Shown here in pieces: positions 632 through 6,924 of a stretch of DNA of 44,246 nucleotides. Source of the DNA: Alphaproteobacteria bacterium (GTDB lineage Bacteria > Pseudomonadota > Alphaproteobacteria > Rhizobiales > Devosiaceae); contig JAJRRG010000225.1 of assembly GCA_024279675.1 (NCBI GenBank), positions 1 through 44,246 on the forward strand. The letters run 5' to 3'. Every line of letters begins with the position of its first letter. Position 1 is the stretch's first letter. The notes beneath the pieces are model-generated. The model ran no database searches. It had not been told where the DNA came from and worked only from the letters and a program-made list of their open reading frames with translations. The translations under genes and the position numbers were made by a program.

Positions 632-1465
632 TTACTTGATGGCACCGGCTGTCATGCCTGCAATAAAGCGTTTCGACTGAACGATGAACACGATTACCAC
701 CGGTAGGGCAGCCAAAGTCAGGCCGGCATAAAGCACGCCAAAGTTGACACTGTATTCCCCAAAGAAAGAAGTTAGACCCTGGGCTAACGTTTTCATTTCC
801 GGTGTTTGGATAAAAATCAGAGGGAAGAAGAAATCGTTCCATATGGGCACAGCGTTATAAATTCCTGCAATCACCATGGCGGGGGTAATAAGCGGCACCA
901 TAATTTCCACCATTATCCGAAATTCAGAAGCGCCATCTACCCTTGCACTATCTTCAAGTTCAGATGGAAGTGCGCGCAAAAATCCAGTTAGAATAAATAC
1001 GGTGGAGGGCAGGCTCATGGCTATGTAAATGAATATCAGGCCGAGCAAATTATCAATCAGCCCCATGAATTTGAGTTGGATAAACAGCGGGATGATGGCA
1101 AGTCGTAGGGGCAACATCAGTCCGGCAAGAAAAAACAGGGAAACCATAATGGAGCCGCGAAACCGATAGCGTGAAATTGCATAGGCGGCCATGGTCCCGG
1201 TCACCAGCAATATGGCAACAGAGGCAAGTGTGACGATGGTTGAGTTTAGTAAAAATCTGGGGACGTCGGTCGTATTCCATATCACCAAATAATTGTCAAA
1301 ATTCAGGCTTTTGGGCAGAGCAAACGGGTTACCAAAGATTTCAGCGTTGGTTTTAAAGCCTGACATTGCCATCATAATGATGGGATACAAAACAACGATT
1401 GTAGTGGCGATCAGGAATATCTGGACAAGCCAAGCTTCGTAGCCGGCGTTTCTTTTGGTTTGCAT
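632..1465 (-). CDS. CUT1 sugar ABC transporter permease (MalG-like)
   Basis: A 277-residue inner-membrane permease, the last gene of the minus-strand sugar-uptake operon. It shows about six hydrophobic segments, the first near residues 12-34. The cytoplasmic EAA loop has the signature EDSARVDGASEFRIMVEIMVP, which docks on the ATPase subunit. Its length and EAA motif match the MalG branch of carbohydrate-uptake (CUT1) permeases. The start is supported by a strong ribosome site, GGAGG five bases before ATG, which overlaps the TAG stop of the upstream permease. Translation of the two permeases is therefore probably coupled. The substrate is not encoded in this subunit; the neighbouring murQ suggests an amino-sugar such as MurNAc or a muropeptide sugar (inference). 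Confidence 0.92.
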   Translation of the reverse strand: MQTKRNAGYEAWLVQIFLIATTIVVLYPIIMMAMSGFKTNAEIFGNPFALPKSLNFDNYLVIWNTTDVPRFLLNSTIVTLASVAILLVTGTMAAYAISRYRFRGSIMVSLFFLAGLMLPLRLAIIPLFIQLKFMGLIDNLLGLIFIYIAMSLPSTVFILTGFLRALPSELEDSARVDGASEFRIMVEIMVPLITPAMVIAGIYNAVPIWNDFFFPLIFIQTPEMKTLAQGLTSFFGEYSVNFGVLYAGLTLAALPVVIVFIVQSKRFIAGMTAGAIK

Positions 1466-1474
1466 CGTTGCCTC

Positions 1475-2428
1475 CTAATTCATTTCAACTTCGCGACTGG
1501 TCAAATATTTTGTCGCGATAATTGAGAATACAAAAATGAAGATGAACATCAGAACAGCAAGGGCTGAACCACTGCCGAAATTGGAACCGCCGGCGCTGAC
1601 CGAACCAAAGGCCGTCCGATAAAACATGAGGCCAAGCATATCAGTGGAGCCCGCAGGAGAGCCTTCCAGCCCATTCATGATGTAGGGAATTTCAAACCAA
1701 TTAAACGATCCGATGAATGTTAACACCGTAATAATCGTGATTGCCGGCGCCATTAGTGGCCATATTATCTCGCGGGCTATTCTCCATTCCGAGGCGCCAT
1801 CAAGGCGCGCCGCTTCGATGAAATCTTTTGGAATTCGATGTATTGCCGCTAAAAATACCAGTGTGGGAAAGCCAAACCAGTGCCAGGAGTTCACCAACAG
1901 CATGGAATTAAGGGCCGTTTCAGGAAGTCCCAGCCATGGCAAAGCCCAATCATGCAGTCCAATATTGTGCAGAAATTTATTCACCAGACCAAAAACAGGA
2001 TTAAGGAATAGCTTCCATTGAAATCCGATGATTACTGTTGATAGAATAACGGGAAGGAAGAATACGACCTGATAAAACCGATACCCTTTTGGATTGCGAG
2101 CCAATAACAGCGCGATTACCAGGGCGATGCCATTTTGAACCAGCATCAACGAAACGAACACTTTTACATTATTCATAAACGCGTTGAATAAAACTTTGTT
2201 TTTCAAGGGGTTGAATAAAATGTCCTGAAAATTTGCCAGGCCGATAAATTCCTTGCGCACCAAACCGTCCCAATCAAATACGCTGTACCAGACGGCGCTT
2301 CCCATCGGAACGAATACAAAAACAATCAAAATGGCGGCGGGTGGAAGAATTAGAAACAACAGCCAAAGTTTTAATTTGAGCGTTCTGTTTCTTTTCGCCT
2401 TCTCATAGTCTGCATTGGTCATCGACAT
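1475..2428 (-). CDS. CUT1 sugar ABC transporter permease (MalF-like)
   Basis: A 317-residue inner-membrane permease, partner of the MalG-like gene 9 bases downstream. About six membrane segments are visible, starting near residue 22. The EAA loop reads IEAARLDGASEWRIAREIIWP. It lacks the large periplasmic insertion of true MalF, as is usual for general CUT1 permeases of about 300 residues. A GGGGG ribosome site lies a few bases before the ATG, and the gap to the preceding ATPase gene is only 12 bases, so the genes are co-transcribed. It should form the heterodimeric channel with the next gene. Confidence 0.92.
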   Translation of the reverse strand: MSMTNADYEKAKRNRTLKLKLWLLFLILPPAAILIVFVFVPMGSAVWYSVFDWDGLVRKEFIGLANFQDILFNPLKNKVLFNAFMNNVKVFVSLMLVQNGIALVIALLLARNPKGYRFYQVVFFLPVILSTVIIGFQWKLFLNPVFGLVNKFLHNIGLHDWALPWLGLPETALNSMLLVNSWHWFGFPTLVFLAAIHRIPKDFIEAARLDGASEWRIAREIIWPLMAPAITIITVLTFIGSFNWFEIPYIMNGLEGSPAGSTDMLGLMFYRTAFGSVSAGGSNFGSGSALAVLMFIFIFVFSIIATKYLTSREVEMN

Positions 2429-2440
2429 AATTGCCCCCTT

Positions 2441-3526
2441 TTAGCGAACGGCATCGCCATGTGGTCCAAATAAGTAAGATTGCTTTAGTGAGAACCCGAT
2501 TTCTACCATGTCGCCGATGGCAATTTTTTGATCCCCGGACATATGGGCCACAACTTCCTTTTGGTCTCCAACATAAAGGTACAGATAGGTTTCACCACCC
2601 AGCCGTTCCACGGCATACACTTCACCAGTAAATGTGCCTTGGTTTGTGTTTCCAATGGTAAAATGCTCCGGGCGAACACCAAAACTTACCTTGTCGCCAG
2701 TGGAAAGATTTGAAGGTTCGTTTAAGGGAAATTTGATTTTCACACTGTCTTTAACGTCGATTTCAACATCAGTGTTGCTCGTGTTTATAACTGTTCCATC
2801 AAAAAAATTCATGGAAGGAGAGCCAATAAACCCCGCAACAAACAAGTTGTCAGGCGCGTTATATAAGTCCAATGGAGCGCCGATTTGCTCGACTTTGCCG
2901 TCCCGCAGCACCACAATTTTATCCGCCATTGTCATGGCCTCGACCTGATCATGGGTCACATAGATCATGGTTGCATTTAGGGAACGGTGCAATTTGGTCA
3001 GTTCGATGCGCATTTGAACCCGTAGTTTTGCATCCAGGTTTGACAGGGGTGCGTCAAACAAAAATACTTTTGGGTCACGCACAATCGCGCGACCAATGGC
3101 GACCCTTTGCCTTTGTCCACCGGACAATGCTTTAGGTTTTCGTTCTAGGTATTCAGTTAGTTGTAAAACGCTGGCCGCATCATTTACCTTTTTGGCAATT
3201 GTTTCTTTGCTTTCCTTGGCCACGCGAAGCGCATAACCCATGTTTTGTCGTACCGTGAAGTGGGGATAAAGCGCATAGGACTGGAAAACCATGGCAACAC
3301 CCCGTTTGGATGGCGCAAGGTGATCAACGCGTTCTTCTTCAATGTGGACTTCGCCCGATGTGAGGTCTTCCAACCCAGCAATCAGTCTCAGGAGTGTGGA
3401 TTTTCCGCAACCCGATGGCCCGACAAAAACGACAAACTCGTTATCTTCAACAGTCAGGTTTACATCTTTGATGACTTTCACTTCACCAAACTGTTTGTTT
3501 ACTGAGCGCAATACGACATTGGCCAT
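2441..3526 (-). CDS. CUT1 ABC transporter ATP-binding protein (UgpC/MsmK/MalK type) with atypical Walker B
   Basis: A 361-residue cytoplasmic ATPase for the adjacent sugar permeases. Walker A is GPSGCGKST (residues 36-44), the signature is LSGGQRQ (about 134-140), the D-loop is SNLDAKLR, and the switch histidine is in YVTHDQVEAM. A C-terminal TOBE-type domain follows residue 240. The length is normal for the family. The oddity is in Walker B: the motif reads VFLFDAP instead of VFLFDEP, so residue 159 is Ala (codon GCA, bases 3050-3052). This is the position of E159 in E. coli MalK, the catalytic base, and one base change from GAA would produce it. Every other ABC ATPase in this window keeps the glutamate. 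It lies between the binding-protein gene and the permeases, with a hairpin upstream. Confidence 0.93.
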   Translation of the reverse strand: MANVVLRSVNKQFGEVKVIKDVNLTVEDNEFVVFVGPSGCGKSTLLRLIAGLEDLTSGEVHIEEERVDHLAPSKRGVAMVFQSYALYPHFTVRQNMGYALRVAKESKETIAKKVNDAASVLQLTEYLERKPKALSGGQRQRVAIGRAIVRDPKVFLFDAPLSNLDAKLRVQMRIELTKLHRSLNATMIYVTHDQVEAMTMADKIVVLRDGKVEQIGAPLDLYNAPDNLFVAGFIGSPSMNFFDGTVINTSNTDVEIDVKDSVKIKFPLNEPSNLSTGDKVSFGVRPEHFTIGNTNQGTFTGEVYAVERLGGETYLYLYVGDQKEVVAHMSGDQKIAIGDMVEIGFSLKQSYLFGPHGDAVR

Positions 3527-3586
3527 AATTTTCCAACTTTTGTTAGAGTTATCTTGTTCGTGCGAACCGGTCCGGCTCTATGCGAT

Positions 3587-3618
3587 TAAATAAAACCCGA
3601 GGCGCAGGACGCCTCGGG
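3587..3618 (-). terminator. Intercistronic hairpin after the binding-protein gene
   Basis: CCCGAGGCG (3596-3604) and CGCCTCGGG (3610-3618) form a perfect 9-bp stem with a 5-nt loop. On the minus strand it is followed by TTTTATTTA. It lies between the binding-protein stop and the ATPase start, so it is best read as a partial terminator or an mRNA 3' stabiliser that raises binding-protein levels over the other subunits. Confidence 0.8.
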
Positions 3619-3635
3619 ACTTGTTGTGGATTTAA

Positions 3636-4850
3636 TTATTCAGCGGTTTTGATGCCGTTGCTAACATCCGCTGCAACTTCAGCTGCGGTTTTGGCACCTG
3701 TCATCAACTCTTGCAGACCCGATTGAAGAAGGGTCGAGCCTGTTGGTGTATCGAAACGGAAGGCAACCAACATGATGTATGGTGTCGCGGCAGAATGGAA
3801 ACTTGACACTCTGGACAAGGTTGCATCTGAAGACATGGCACCATCAACGGCGGCAACATTGTTCAACTCATCCGTCAACATCTGAGCAAACGGTGTTGTT
3901 GCTGTGAAACGGATGAACTCTAGCGCATCTTCTTTGTTTTCGGAGGCAGCATTGACGCCATATCCGCCATCAAGCCAAGTTGCAACCATGCGTTCGCCAC
4001 CAGCTTCAGCAGCGGGGCCAGGCATAATTTCAAAGTTAATGCCGGCATCTCTGAAACCGTTGATTTCCCATGAACCGCCAATAAACATCGCGGCGGCACC
4101 AGAGGTAAATAGCGCTTTCATCGTGGCATAGTCGACGCCTTCAAATCCTGTAGGCATAAATTCAGCCAGTTCGGACATTTTTTCAAGGGCACCAACATAG
4201 CGTGCATCCTCAAAATCGGTTGCACCGGATGTAACTTCCCCAAAGAACCCACTGCCATAGAAATTTGGCATAATAGCACCGGACATAATTTCAACAGTCC
4301 AGCCATCGGCAGTTCCGTTGGCAAGTGGTGTAATGCCCGCAGCTTTAAGTGCAGTGGAGGCGGCTTTAAATTCCTCAAAGGTTTCAGGTACTGTGATGTT
4401 GTTCGCGTCAAAAATATCTTTGTTGTAATAAACAACGACAGTTTGTGATGCGAATGGAACAGCATAGATGCGGCCATCTGCGCGAAGCGTTGTCCCTAAT
4501 AGTTCGTCGGCGCTTAGCAATGACAGGTCAACTTGGCCATCAAGGGCTTCAAGATACCCAGCCCCCGAAATGGCTTCCAAACTTCCATATGCACGTGTGT
4601 GGATAATGTCAGGGCCTGAACCACCAGCAAGAGCCGTTGTTAGAATGGTATTGTAGGCTTTTGCTTCGTGGGCCGTGTAGGTAATTTTAATGTCGGGGTG
4701 CGTTGCTTCAAAAGCGGCTATAATTTTTTCATAGGCCGCAATATCTTCCTGACGCCAACTCCAAAAATTCAATTCACTGGCTGCGAGCGTTGATACGCTT
4801 GCTGACAAAGCAGCGGCGACTAAAAGCGCCCTTGTTGTAAATTTTCTCAT
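3636..4850 (-). CDS. CUT1 extracellular sugar-binding protein
   Basis: A 404-residue periplasmic solute-binding protein and first gene of the transporter operon. The N-terminus MRKFTTRALLVAAALSA followed by STLAA is a Sec signal peptide with cleavage expected near residue 23. Mature protein starts with ELNFWSWRQED, typical of family 1 binding proteins. The segment GGSGPDIIHTRAYGSLEAI matches the conserved GPD block. A GGGAGAG ribosome site precedes the ATG. The gene has its own promoter at 4938-4966, overlapped by a pseudo-palindrome also found at murQ, and it is flanked upstream by the RpiR regulator gene. The ligand cannot be read from sequence; a MurNAc-type or other amino-sugar ligand is inferred from context only. 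Confidence 0.93.
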   Translation of the reverse strand: MRKFTTRALLVAAALSASVSTLAASELNFWSWRQEDIAAYEKIIAAFEATHPDIKITYTAHEAKAYNTILTTALAGGSGPDIIHTRAYGSLEAISGAGYLEALDGQVDLSLLSADELLGTTLRADGRIYAVPFASQTVVVYYNKDIFDANNITVPETFEEFKAASTALKAAGITPLANGTADGWTVEIMSGAIMPNFYGSGFFGEVTSGATDFEDARYVGALEKMSELAEFMPTGFEGVDYATMKALFTSGAAAMFIGGSWEINGFRDAGINFEIMPGPAAEAGGERMVATWLDGGYGVNAASENKEDALEFIRFTATTPFAQMLTDELNNVAAVDGAMSSDATLSRVSSFHSAATPYIMLVAFRFDTPTGSTLLQSGLQELMTGAKTAAEVAADVSNGIKTAE

Positions 4851-4935: not shown

Positions 4936-4950
4936 GGAATTTAATATTCG
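4936..4950 (-). promoter_or_regulatory. Candidate RpiR operator over the -10 box of the binding-protein promoter
   Basis: Read on the minus strand the site is CGAATATTAAATTCC. It is a pseudo-palindrome and matches 12 of 15 bases of the site at the murQ promoter (GGAATATATAATTCC). Both overlap a -10 box and both flank the RpiR gene. The assignment to RpiR is inference from position and similarity. Confidence 0.6.
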
Positions 4951-4966
4951 TAAACGTATCTGTCAA
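4938..4966 (-). promoter_or_regulatory. Sigma-70-type promoter of the CUT1 operon
   Basis: On the minus strand TTGACA (4961-4966) is separated by 17 bases from TAAATT (4938-4943). The predicted start lies about 80 bases upstream of the binding-protein ATG. The -10 region is inside the candidate operator, the usual arrangement for repression. A second similar site lies just upstream of the -35 box at 4969-4983. Confidence 0.65.
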
Positions 4967-4968
4967 TC

Positions 4969-4983
4969 ATTTTTTATTATTCA
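4969..4983 (-). promoter_or_regulatory. Distal candidate RpiR half-site upstream of the CUT1 operon promoter
   Basis: The minus strand reads TGAATAATAAAAAAT. The core GAATAATAAA is identical to the core of the distal site in front of murQ. Centre-to-centre distance to the proximal site is 33 bases (32 at murQ), about three helical turns, so two dimers could bind the same face of the DNA. Confidence 0.45.
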
Positions 4984-5023
4984 CGGGGCAGGGCGACATT
5001 GGTTTGGGACCTTAAATTGGCAA

Positions 5024-5869
5024 TTATCGAATTTTTCTCACCAGTTCCTGGCTGGTGGAAATACGTTCGGCGGCATCATCGCGCCTCTGTACCAACAAAA
5101 CAAACAATAGGTCTGTTATGGCGAACTGGGCCGTTCTAGTTGCAATGGACGAGCTTCTAACGACGCTTTCATCCGCGGCACAATGCAGCAACACATCAGG
5201 TGGATTGTCCCCATAAAACCCGCCAACGAATACGACGGGAATATTATTCTCCTTGGCAAAGTCAACCGCAACACTAATTTCCCGGGTCTTTCCGGAATAG
5301 GATATTGCTACAAGTAAATCATCGGGGCGAAAACTTGCAAGATTTGCCAGTTGAATATGACTATCACCCGAACTAATCACGGATTTTCCAAATTTTGTCA
5401 GTTTCAATGTCATATCTTGTGCAACAAGGGCCGATCCGCCGATGCCCATGATGAGGATACGATCTGACTTTTCAATCAATCTGACAGCCTCGTCCAACTT
5501 CTCGTTAGAGTTCATTTTCATCGTTTCGGACATTGCCGACACTTTGCTGTTGAAAAGTTTTTTTGCCACCGACCCTAGGGAATCATCGCTAAAAATCCCC
5601 GCATGGATTTGTTGAGCGTTTTCGCTTCGCGCCATTTCCGCGCTTAGAGTGATTTTAAGGGCAGGGAAACCGCGAAATCCAATTTTTTGACAAAACTTAA
5701 TGATGCTGGATTGGCTCACATTGCATTTTTGCGCGAGCGTTTGCGATGACATCTCTGTAATTTCCTGGGGCGAAAGAATTATAGTTTCGGCTATGGAGCG
5801 CTCGATTTTTGACATCCGCTCAAGATCAGAGCTTAGGCGGGAAATTAGGCTGATTTTAGAATTTTTCAT
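5024..5869 (-). CDS. MurR/RpiR-family transcriptional regulator (HTH plus SIS domain)
   Basis: A 281-residue cytoplasmic regulator. Residues 1-80 form the RpiR helix-turn-helix region (LAQKCNVSQSSIIKFCQKIGF followed by PALKITLSAE). Residues about 125-260 form a sugar-isomerase (SIS) domain with the phosphosugar loop ILIMGIGGSALVAQD and a second loop LVAISYSGKTREI. Members of this family bind sugar phosphates and usually repress the genes next to them. It lies between the transporter operon (same strand) and murQ (divergent), the standard position for a regulator of both. Because MurQ acts on MurNAc-6-phosphate, that compound is the most likely effector (inference). A candidate operator at 5921-5935 could also mediate autoregulation. 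Its own promoter is not clear. Confidence 0.92.
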   Translation of the reverse strand: MKNSKISLISRLSSDLERMSKIERSIAETIILSPQEITEMSSQTLAQKCNVSQSSIIKFCQKIGFRGFPALKITLSAEMARSENAQQIHAGIFSDDSLGSVAKKLFNSKVSAMSETMKMNSNEKLDEAVRLIEKSDRILIMGIGGSALVAQDMTLKLTKFGKSVISSGDSHIQLANLASFRPDDLLVAISYSGKTREISVAVDFAKENNIPVVFVGGFYGDNPPDVLLHCAADESVVRSSSIATRTAQFAITDLLFVLLVQRRDDAAERISTSQELVRKIR

Positions 5870-5920
5870 ATGTTCTTCTGTCTGTTAGAGGCAGAGGCTA
5901 ACATTATTTTGGCACCAAAA

Positions 5921-5935
5921 CGAATAATAAATTAT
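5921..5935 (+). promoter_or_regulatory. Distal candidate RpiR site upstream of murQ
   Basis: CGAATAATAAATTAT matches 12 of 15 bases of the site at the CUT1 promoter (CGAATATTAAATTCC). Its GAATAATAAA core recurs exactly at 4969-4983 on the other strand. It abuts the murQ -35 box and lies between rpiR and murQ, so it could act on both divergent genes. Confidence 0.5.
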
Positions 5936-5964
5936 TGACGGGGCGTGGTTTTGGAATATATAAT
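5935..5964 (+). promoter_or_regulatory. Strong sigma-70-type promoter of murQ
   Basis: TTGACG (5935-5940), an 18-base spacer and a perfect TATAAT (5959-5964). The expected transcription start, about seven bases after the -10 box, falls on the A of the murQ ATG at 5971. The ORF-track start at 5935 is actually this -35 hexamer read as a TTG codon. Confidence 0.8.
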
Positions 5965-5967
5965 TCC
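5953..5967 (+). promoter_or_regulatory. Candidate RpiR operator over the murQ -10 box
   Basis: GGAATATATAATTCC has perfect 5-bp arms (GGAAT/ATTCC) around ATATA and covers the -10 box. The matching site at 4936-4950 covers the -10 box of the transporter operon. Bound repressor would block RNA polymerase at both promoters. Confidence 0.65.
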
Positions 5968-5970
5968 AAT

Positions 5971-6924
5971 ATGATGATTGAAATTAAAAATGAATTGGTT
6001 GCGCTTTCTACCTCCCTAGAGGGGTTGAATTCTGAAAAAACCAACATTCTATCGAGCGAGCTGGACAAACTATCCGCCTTAGAAATTGCGCAGTTGATGA
6101 ATGCTGAGGATGCAAAAGTGTCGCTTGCCGTCTCAAAAACGCTGGGCCCAATCAGCCAAGCGATCGAAGCTGCCGCGCGGGCATTGAGGGTTGGTGGCAG
6201 AGTTATCTACATTGGTGCTGGCACAAGTGGGCGCTTGGGAATTTTGGATGCGTCTGAAATTCCTCCAACTTTTTCGGCCCCCCATGATTTATTTGTTGCC
6301 CTCATCGCCGGGGGTAGGGATGCAATGTTTCGGTCCAAGGAAGGCGCTGAAGACGATGCATTGCAGGGCGTGGCCGATTTACGTGAAATAGGCTTAAGCA
6401 AAGAGGATTTTGTTGTTGGCCTTGCGGTATCGGGACGCACACCATACGTCTTGGGCGCAATTAAATATGCTCTAGACCTCGGTGTCGTTACAGCAGGGGT
6501 TTCTTGCAATGGGGGGAGCGAACTCGATCGAATTTCCGACATCGCCATTACCCCAATCGTTGGCCCTGAAATACTCACCGGGTCAACCCGGTTGAAATCC
6601 GGCACTGCACAAAAGCAAGTTCTCAATATGATCTCGACGGGCGCGATGGTTCAAATTGGCAAGTGCTTTGGAAACAGAATGGTCGATATGAACGCTTCAA
6701 ATGAAAAATTGAAAGCGCGCGCAATTAACTTGGTTACAGATTTGACTTCTTCAACAAAAGAAGCGGCGTTAGATGCGCTGACTTATGCAAATTGGGATAT
6801 TAAATCTGCCATTTTGATGGAAAAAACCGGTATGAATGCTAAAGACGCGACCAAAATGATAAAAGAGCAAAATGGACATCTTCGCCATGCTATTGCAGCG
6901 TTTGAATCCGAGAGTAATTTGTAA
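5971..6924 (+). CDS. murQ: N-acetylmuramic acid 6-phosphate etherase
   Basis: MurQ cleaves the lactyl ether of MurNAc-6-phosphate to give GlcNAc-6-phosphate and D-lactate, a cytoplasmic step of peptidoglycan-sugar recycling. From the ATG at 5971 the protein has 317 residues, against about 300 in E. coli. The SIS-type active site is intact: GAGTSGRLGILDASEIPPTF (about 82-101) carries the glutamate that acts as catalytic acid/base, and KEGAEDD (about 123-129) carries the second conserved glutamate. The C-terminal helical region ends with QNGHLRHAIAAFE, as in the family. The upstream TTG start is rejected because it is the -35 box. The promoter places the transcript start at the ATG and there is no Shine-Dalgarno, so the mRNA is probably leaderless. 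No kinase that would make MurNAc-6-phosphate lies nearby. Confidence 0.93.
   Translation: MMIEIKNELVALSTSLEGLNSEKTNILSSELDKLSALEIAQLMNAEDAKVSLAVSKTLGPISQAIEAAARALRVGGRVIYIGAGTSGRLGILDASEIPPTFSAPHDLFVALIAGGRDAMFRSKEGAEDDALQGVADLREIGLSKEDFVVGLAVSGRTPYVLGAIKYALDLGVVTAGVSCNGGSELDRISDIAITPIVGPEILTGSTRLKSGTAQKQVLNMISTGAMVQIGKCFGNRMVDMNASNEKLKARAINLVTDLTSSTKEAALDALTYANWDIKSAILMEKTGMNAKDATKMIKEQNGHLRHAIAAFESESNL

Follow-up and report, generated by a model that had tools for sequence, protein, structure and literature searches.

The window, by which we mean the whole 44,246-nucleotide stretch of DNA that was analysed, is a single contig (C237) of a 2.89-Mb draft genome from a family that includes Maritalea and Devosia. 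It carries an ABC sugar transporter operon and an RpiR-family regulator gene, both on the minus strand, followed by murQ on the plus strand; the intergenic regions hold two promoters, each accompanied by two 15-bp sites (Table 1).

Table 1. Genes, promoters and proposed operator sites at the murQ locus.
Feature	Position	Strand	Description
ABC sugar transporter operon	632..4850	-	Binding protein, ATPase and two permeases
Transporter site over -10 box	4936..4950	-	CGAATATTAAATTCC; perfect half-sites
Transporter promoter	4938..4966	-	TTGACA-17-TAAATT; promoter scan, 10/12 consensus bases
Transporter second site	4969..4983	-	TGAATAATAAAAAAT; 5/8 half-site bases, one good half
RpiR-family regulator, MurR/YfhH clade	5024..5869	-	HTH_6 and SIS domains; would bind all four sites
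murQ second site at -35 box	5921..5935	+	CGAATAATAAATTAT; 7/8 half-site bases, near-palindrome
murQ promoter	5935..5964	+	TTGACG-18-TATAAT; promoter scan, 11/12 consensus bases
murQ site over -10 box	5953..5967	+	GGAATATATAATTCC; perfect GAAT-N5-ATTC 15-mer
murQ, N-acetylmuramic acid 6-phosphate etherase	5971..6924	+	TIGR00274, 363 bits (cut-off 302)

The start codon of murQ is the ATG at either 5971 or 5974. Because 6 bases separate the end of the -10 box from the first ATG (5959–5974), a short distance that is kept in 13 of 13 relatives compared, the murQ mRNA is probably leaderless. The window cluster contains no BadF-type kinase; AnmK is encoded in the genome, as are several BadF-type kinases, whose genes lie on other contigs. 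In relatives, a BadF-type sugar kinase is found beside murQ or in the transporter operon (L056 5047–5943, L070 6022–6894, L173 3038–3946 and L176 4770–5759). Some relatives also encode a beta-lactamase-fold serine hydrolase after the permeases (L041 12125–13078 and L056 12286–13338). Its best NCBIfam match is PBP4B, below the cut-off, and it resembles E. coli yfeW, which lies behind murQP; the window operon does not contain it.

The protein encoded at 5024–5869 belongs to the RpiR family, with matches to PF01418 (HTH_6, 81 bits) and PF01380 (SIS, 60 bits) that are both above the cut-off. Its best NCBIfam model is that of YfhH (PRK11557, 240.4 bits, below the cut-off of 355), and its score against the MurR equivalog PRK15482 (165.9 bits, below the cut-off of 408) rules out a strict MurR orthologue. 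Phylogenetically, the window regulator, MurR and YfhH fall into a 22-row clade apart from other RpiR proteins (support 100/100), in a tree that has four outgroup rows only and does not settle the inner branching order. The best solved matches of the regulator are the SIS domains of E. coli MurR (7en5 and 7en6), and the two proteins have in common a loop, RSSSxxTRTAQ, that V. vulnificus NanR does not have. Because the protein scores below both NCBIfam cut-offs and shares one clade with both MurR and YfhH, we describe it as a MurR/YfhH-clade regulator that would work like MurR, not as MurR itself.

At murQ, the first 15-mer covers the -10 box TATAAT (5959–5964) and the second abuts the -35 box TTGACG (5935–5940), giving a centre spacing of 32 with 17 bp between the sites (layout 15-17-15). 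At the transporter, the first covers the -10 box TAAATT (4943–4938, minus strand) and the second, which is weak, ends 2 bases ahead of the -35 box TTGACA (4966–4961), giving a centre spacing of 33 with 18 bp between the sites (layout 15-18-15). The locus therefore has the two-site layout of adjacent 15-bp sites over the -35 and -10 boxes, roughly 17 bp apart. A previous sequence-only reading of this stretch had reported the sites over both -10 boxes, identical at 12 of 15 bases, together with the two centre spacings, and all of these sequences, coordinates and counts were confirmed. Its description of a second site near each -35 box can be refined: the 10-mer GAATAATAAA is exactly common to both promoters (nine occurrences in the whole genome) and the murQ copy is strong, but the transporter copy is only half conserved.

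On its own, a perfect 15-mer is not unusual, with four seen against 1.3 expected per window. A perfect site in both intergenic regions arose in 1 of 10,000 simulations (1e-4), and 0 of 200 simulated windows had a perfect site joined by a 7/8 partner at an offset of 31–33. As we read it, the case for an operator rests on paired geometry together with conservation, and conservation in relatives is decisive. One alternative is that nothing more than a pair of good sigma-70 promoters in A+T-rich DNA underlies the similarity, with no operator present. There is indeed overlap between the sites and the -35 and -10 boxes, and DNA of this composition often yields promoter-like matches; however, the GAAT and ATTC arms reach beyond the boxes. 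Chance promoter similarity had been called a poor explanation from the outset, and on this point the simulations and the conservation described below agree.

Phylogenetic footprinting in related genomes, a check that had been named beforehand, found the sites to be strongly conserved. The murQ -10 site is kept in 13 of 13 murQ promoters of close relatives, in which its arms are nearly invariant and its spacer drifts. In relatives that share the gene order and have regulators 53–68% identical, the murQ -10 box is covered by GGAATAyATAATTCC, and the murQ -35 box has a near-perfect second palindrome; the Maritalea counterpart of this second site is fully palindromic (AGAATAATAAATTCT). On the transporter side, the -10 site is conserved among relatives, and the second site is degenerate in close relatives too. 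The same sites are present at loci from Devosia, Rhizobium, Mesorhizobium and Enterobacterales with regulators only 34–43% identical to that of the window, and no perfect site was found at four loci of other RpiR proteins from the same family. We further determined partner offsets for 194 distinct perfect sites from Devosiaceae, other Rhizobiales and Enterobacterales: strong partners (at least 7/8 bases) lay at an offset of 31–33 in 97 of 98 cases, and the remaining one at 60. The recurrence of the arms at constant distances in diverged genomes, with spacers that vary, counts against promoter similarity.

We also searched with a sequence model of 51 positions, much of whose training set comes from the window's own family. 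In the window's own genome, only the two window promoters score (E values of 2.1e-8 and 1.2e-4), and subsequent matches (E values of 0.35 and above) were treated as noise; the absence of the sites elsewhere in the genome is a further point against promoter similarity. Across 71 genomes of the family, the window's own included, the model matches 26 of 26 genomes with an orthologue of the regulator versus 2 of 45 without one. The two exceptions are G043, in which the matched murQ sits at a contig end, and G024, whose match (E value of 0.008) is likely a false positive, since its one perfect site falls within sequence that can also be read as an open frame. All six matched genomes outside the training set that have the regulator or murQ score (G007, G020, G036, G043, G051 and G057). 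Separately, one Devosia genome (G063; L172 3468–3684) has an extra operator pair ahead of two genes, one for a GNAT protein and one for a nagZ-type GH3 protein, the latter just under the NCBIfam cut-off (197 versus 207 bits). This gene pair is likely a further regulon member, which would fit cell-wall recycling.

We also performed a search that was blind to proteins, using the exact paired DNA pattern alone in 119 genomes of Enterobacter soli's family; the plain pattern replaced the alphaproteobacterial model (R1), which performs poorly in Enterobacterales. The exact pair was found in 39 of the 119 genomes, at a single place in all but one genome, which had two copies, and the reversed-pattern control gave 0 matches in the same 119. 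Each of the 30 loci examined adjoins a yfhH orthologue (29), murQ (22) or both. At one enterobacterial locus (L212), a paired site lies beside murQ with no yfhH in the 3 kb examined. No match to the exact paired pattern turned up in 289 genomes sampled from across the window's own class; a pattern this strict misses the window, given the imperfection of its upstream sites. That a protein-blind search should arrive at pairs beside the regulator or murQ is again contrary to promoter similarity alone, which we reject as extremely improbable on the basis of the fixed partner spacing, the genome exclusivity, the footprint and the blind search.

These data also bear on the possibility that the sites are operators of another regulator that likewise controls murQ, a reading that draws on the fact that the sites were assigned to the RpiR protein from sequence only. 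Against it, the sites co-occur with the RpiR regulator, they remain ahead of yfhH orthologues at loci that lack murQ, and no other regulator gene is common to the loci, and we consider it very unlikely. The original proposal that the sites are the operator of the 5024–5869 protein is thus supported by co-occurrence, genome exclusivity and conservation, with the sites following the regulator across families, even at loci without murQ.

We consider it highly probable that the locus is controlled by a MurR/YfhH-type repressor acting through paired sites. The 5024–5869 protein would be this repressor, with a dimer binding each 15-bp GAAT-N5-ATTC site and a tetramer bridging two sites on the same face of the DNA, separated by about three helical turns. 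With the sites on the -35 and -10 boxes, binding would exclude RNA polymerase at murQ and, more weakly, at the transporter. Accumulated MurNAc-6-phosphate would then bind the SIS domain and lift repression, and upon derepression the etherase and the importer would be made together. MurNAc-6-phosphate is the predicted inducer on the grounds of gene context and one conserved loop, and the pathway genes support this choice but do not prove it.

A variant of this model is that the same sites are bound but with a different action, in which the inducer is another phosphosugar or the regulator has a partly activating role at one promoter. Consistent with this are the scores of the regulator below both NCBIfam cut-offs, the degenerate second site of the transporter and the example of S. 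pneumoniae NanR, in which an RpiR protein can activate and ligand binding need not release DNA (PMC12713135). However, sites covering both the -35 and -10 boxes form a repressor arrangement, the MurR-type loop is kept, and murQ is the conserved target across families. We regard a different action as unlikely, albeit with an appreciable probability, and favour repression relieved by MurNAc-6-phosphate.

The enterobacterial loci suggest a role for YfhH, an E. coli transcription factor that a 2022 paper (PMC9308461) lists among those of unknown function and for which we found no function in the non-subscription literature searched. Upstream of yfhH, E. coli K-12 carries the pair GGAATTTTTAATTCA, 17 bp, GGAATATAAAATTCA (L120 3658–3672 and 3690–3704), and the 121-bp region with this pair is present in 5,395 of 5,426 E. 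coli genomes, at an identity of at least 99% in 4,971. The surroundings of yfhH are preserved in Enterobacter soli and Serratia, for which gene names were read from the sequences and not via database search: the orthologue lies between a pgpC-like gene and the acpS/pdxJ/recO side, and murQ and a murP-like PTS gene run divergently from it. Where enterobacterial yfhH orthologues lie beside murQP, the paired site lies between them. The arginine of the SIS loop is no longer present in E. coli YfhH, whose ligand response may have decayed for this reason. On balance, we lean towards one operator code, GAAT-N5-ATTC pairs at 31–33, for the whole MurR/YfhH clade in alpha- and gammaproteobacteria, with YfhH as the orphan left from an ancestral murQP locus, a regulator that would still bind its own upstream pair.

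Other characterized RpiR-family regulators resemble the window system in part. RccR and HexR of Pseudomonas also use short pseudo-palindromes, and RccR has two 15-bp copies before aceE (PMC5489143); however, their half-sites (TGTAGT/ACTACA for RccR and TTGT/ACAA for HexR) are unlike the GAAT/ATTC of the window, and they differ in spacing, in their ligand KDPG and in their central carbon targets. The NanR proteins of S. pneumoniae and V. vulnificus have near-palindromic or paired sites and a phosphosugar ligand. Unlike the proposed window repressor, S. pneumoniae NanR is an activator that recognizes TCTGAAAGTACTTTTAGA without adjacent paired sites and responds to ManNAc-6-phosphate. In the non-subscription literature searched, we found no published GAAT-N5-ATTC consensus; an earlier prediction may exist in subscription papers or in regulon databases such as RegPrecise.

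E. coli MurR belongs to the same family, is 35% identical to the window regulator and, like it, is encoded divergently from murQ. According to a 2025 preprint, which cites Jaeger and Mayer (2008), a proposed MurR tetramer connects two 15-bp sites, one over the -35 and one over the -10 box, with 17 bp between them and a total span of 47 bp (PMC12713135). The murQ pair of the window has exactly this geometry as given there, so that the sequence-only reading, which knew of no published form, has to be corrected: this kind of operator is already known from E. coli MurR. At the corresponding place, the E. coli murQ promoter reads AGACTCAATGATTCC, 17 bp, GGGATATATGATTCC, the latter being identical to the window murQ -10 site at 13 of 15 bases; from the geometry, we infer that these are the published MurR 15-mers. 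The window sites are more symmetric than those of E. coli, and the importer differs as well, being an ABC transporter with its own operator in the window and a PTS permease inside the murQ operon in E. coli. E. coli YfhH is 38% identical to the window regulator, and its gene has the same 15-17-15 GAAT-N5-ATTC pair upstream; enterobacterial yfhH orthologues adjoin murQP, whereas E. coli yfhH has no adjacent murQ. What is added here is the wide conservation, the ABC importer as a second target and, for YfhH, a concrete prediction. Together, these provide a precise predicted operator through which Devosiaceae and other Rhizobiales would control the recycling of cell-wall sugars, extend the layout of E. 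coli MurR to two classes and offer a specific candidate binding site and function for E. coli YfhH.
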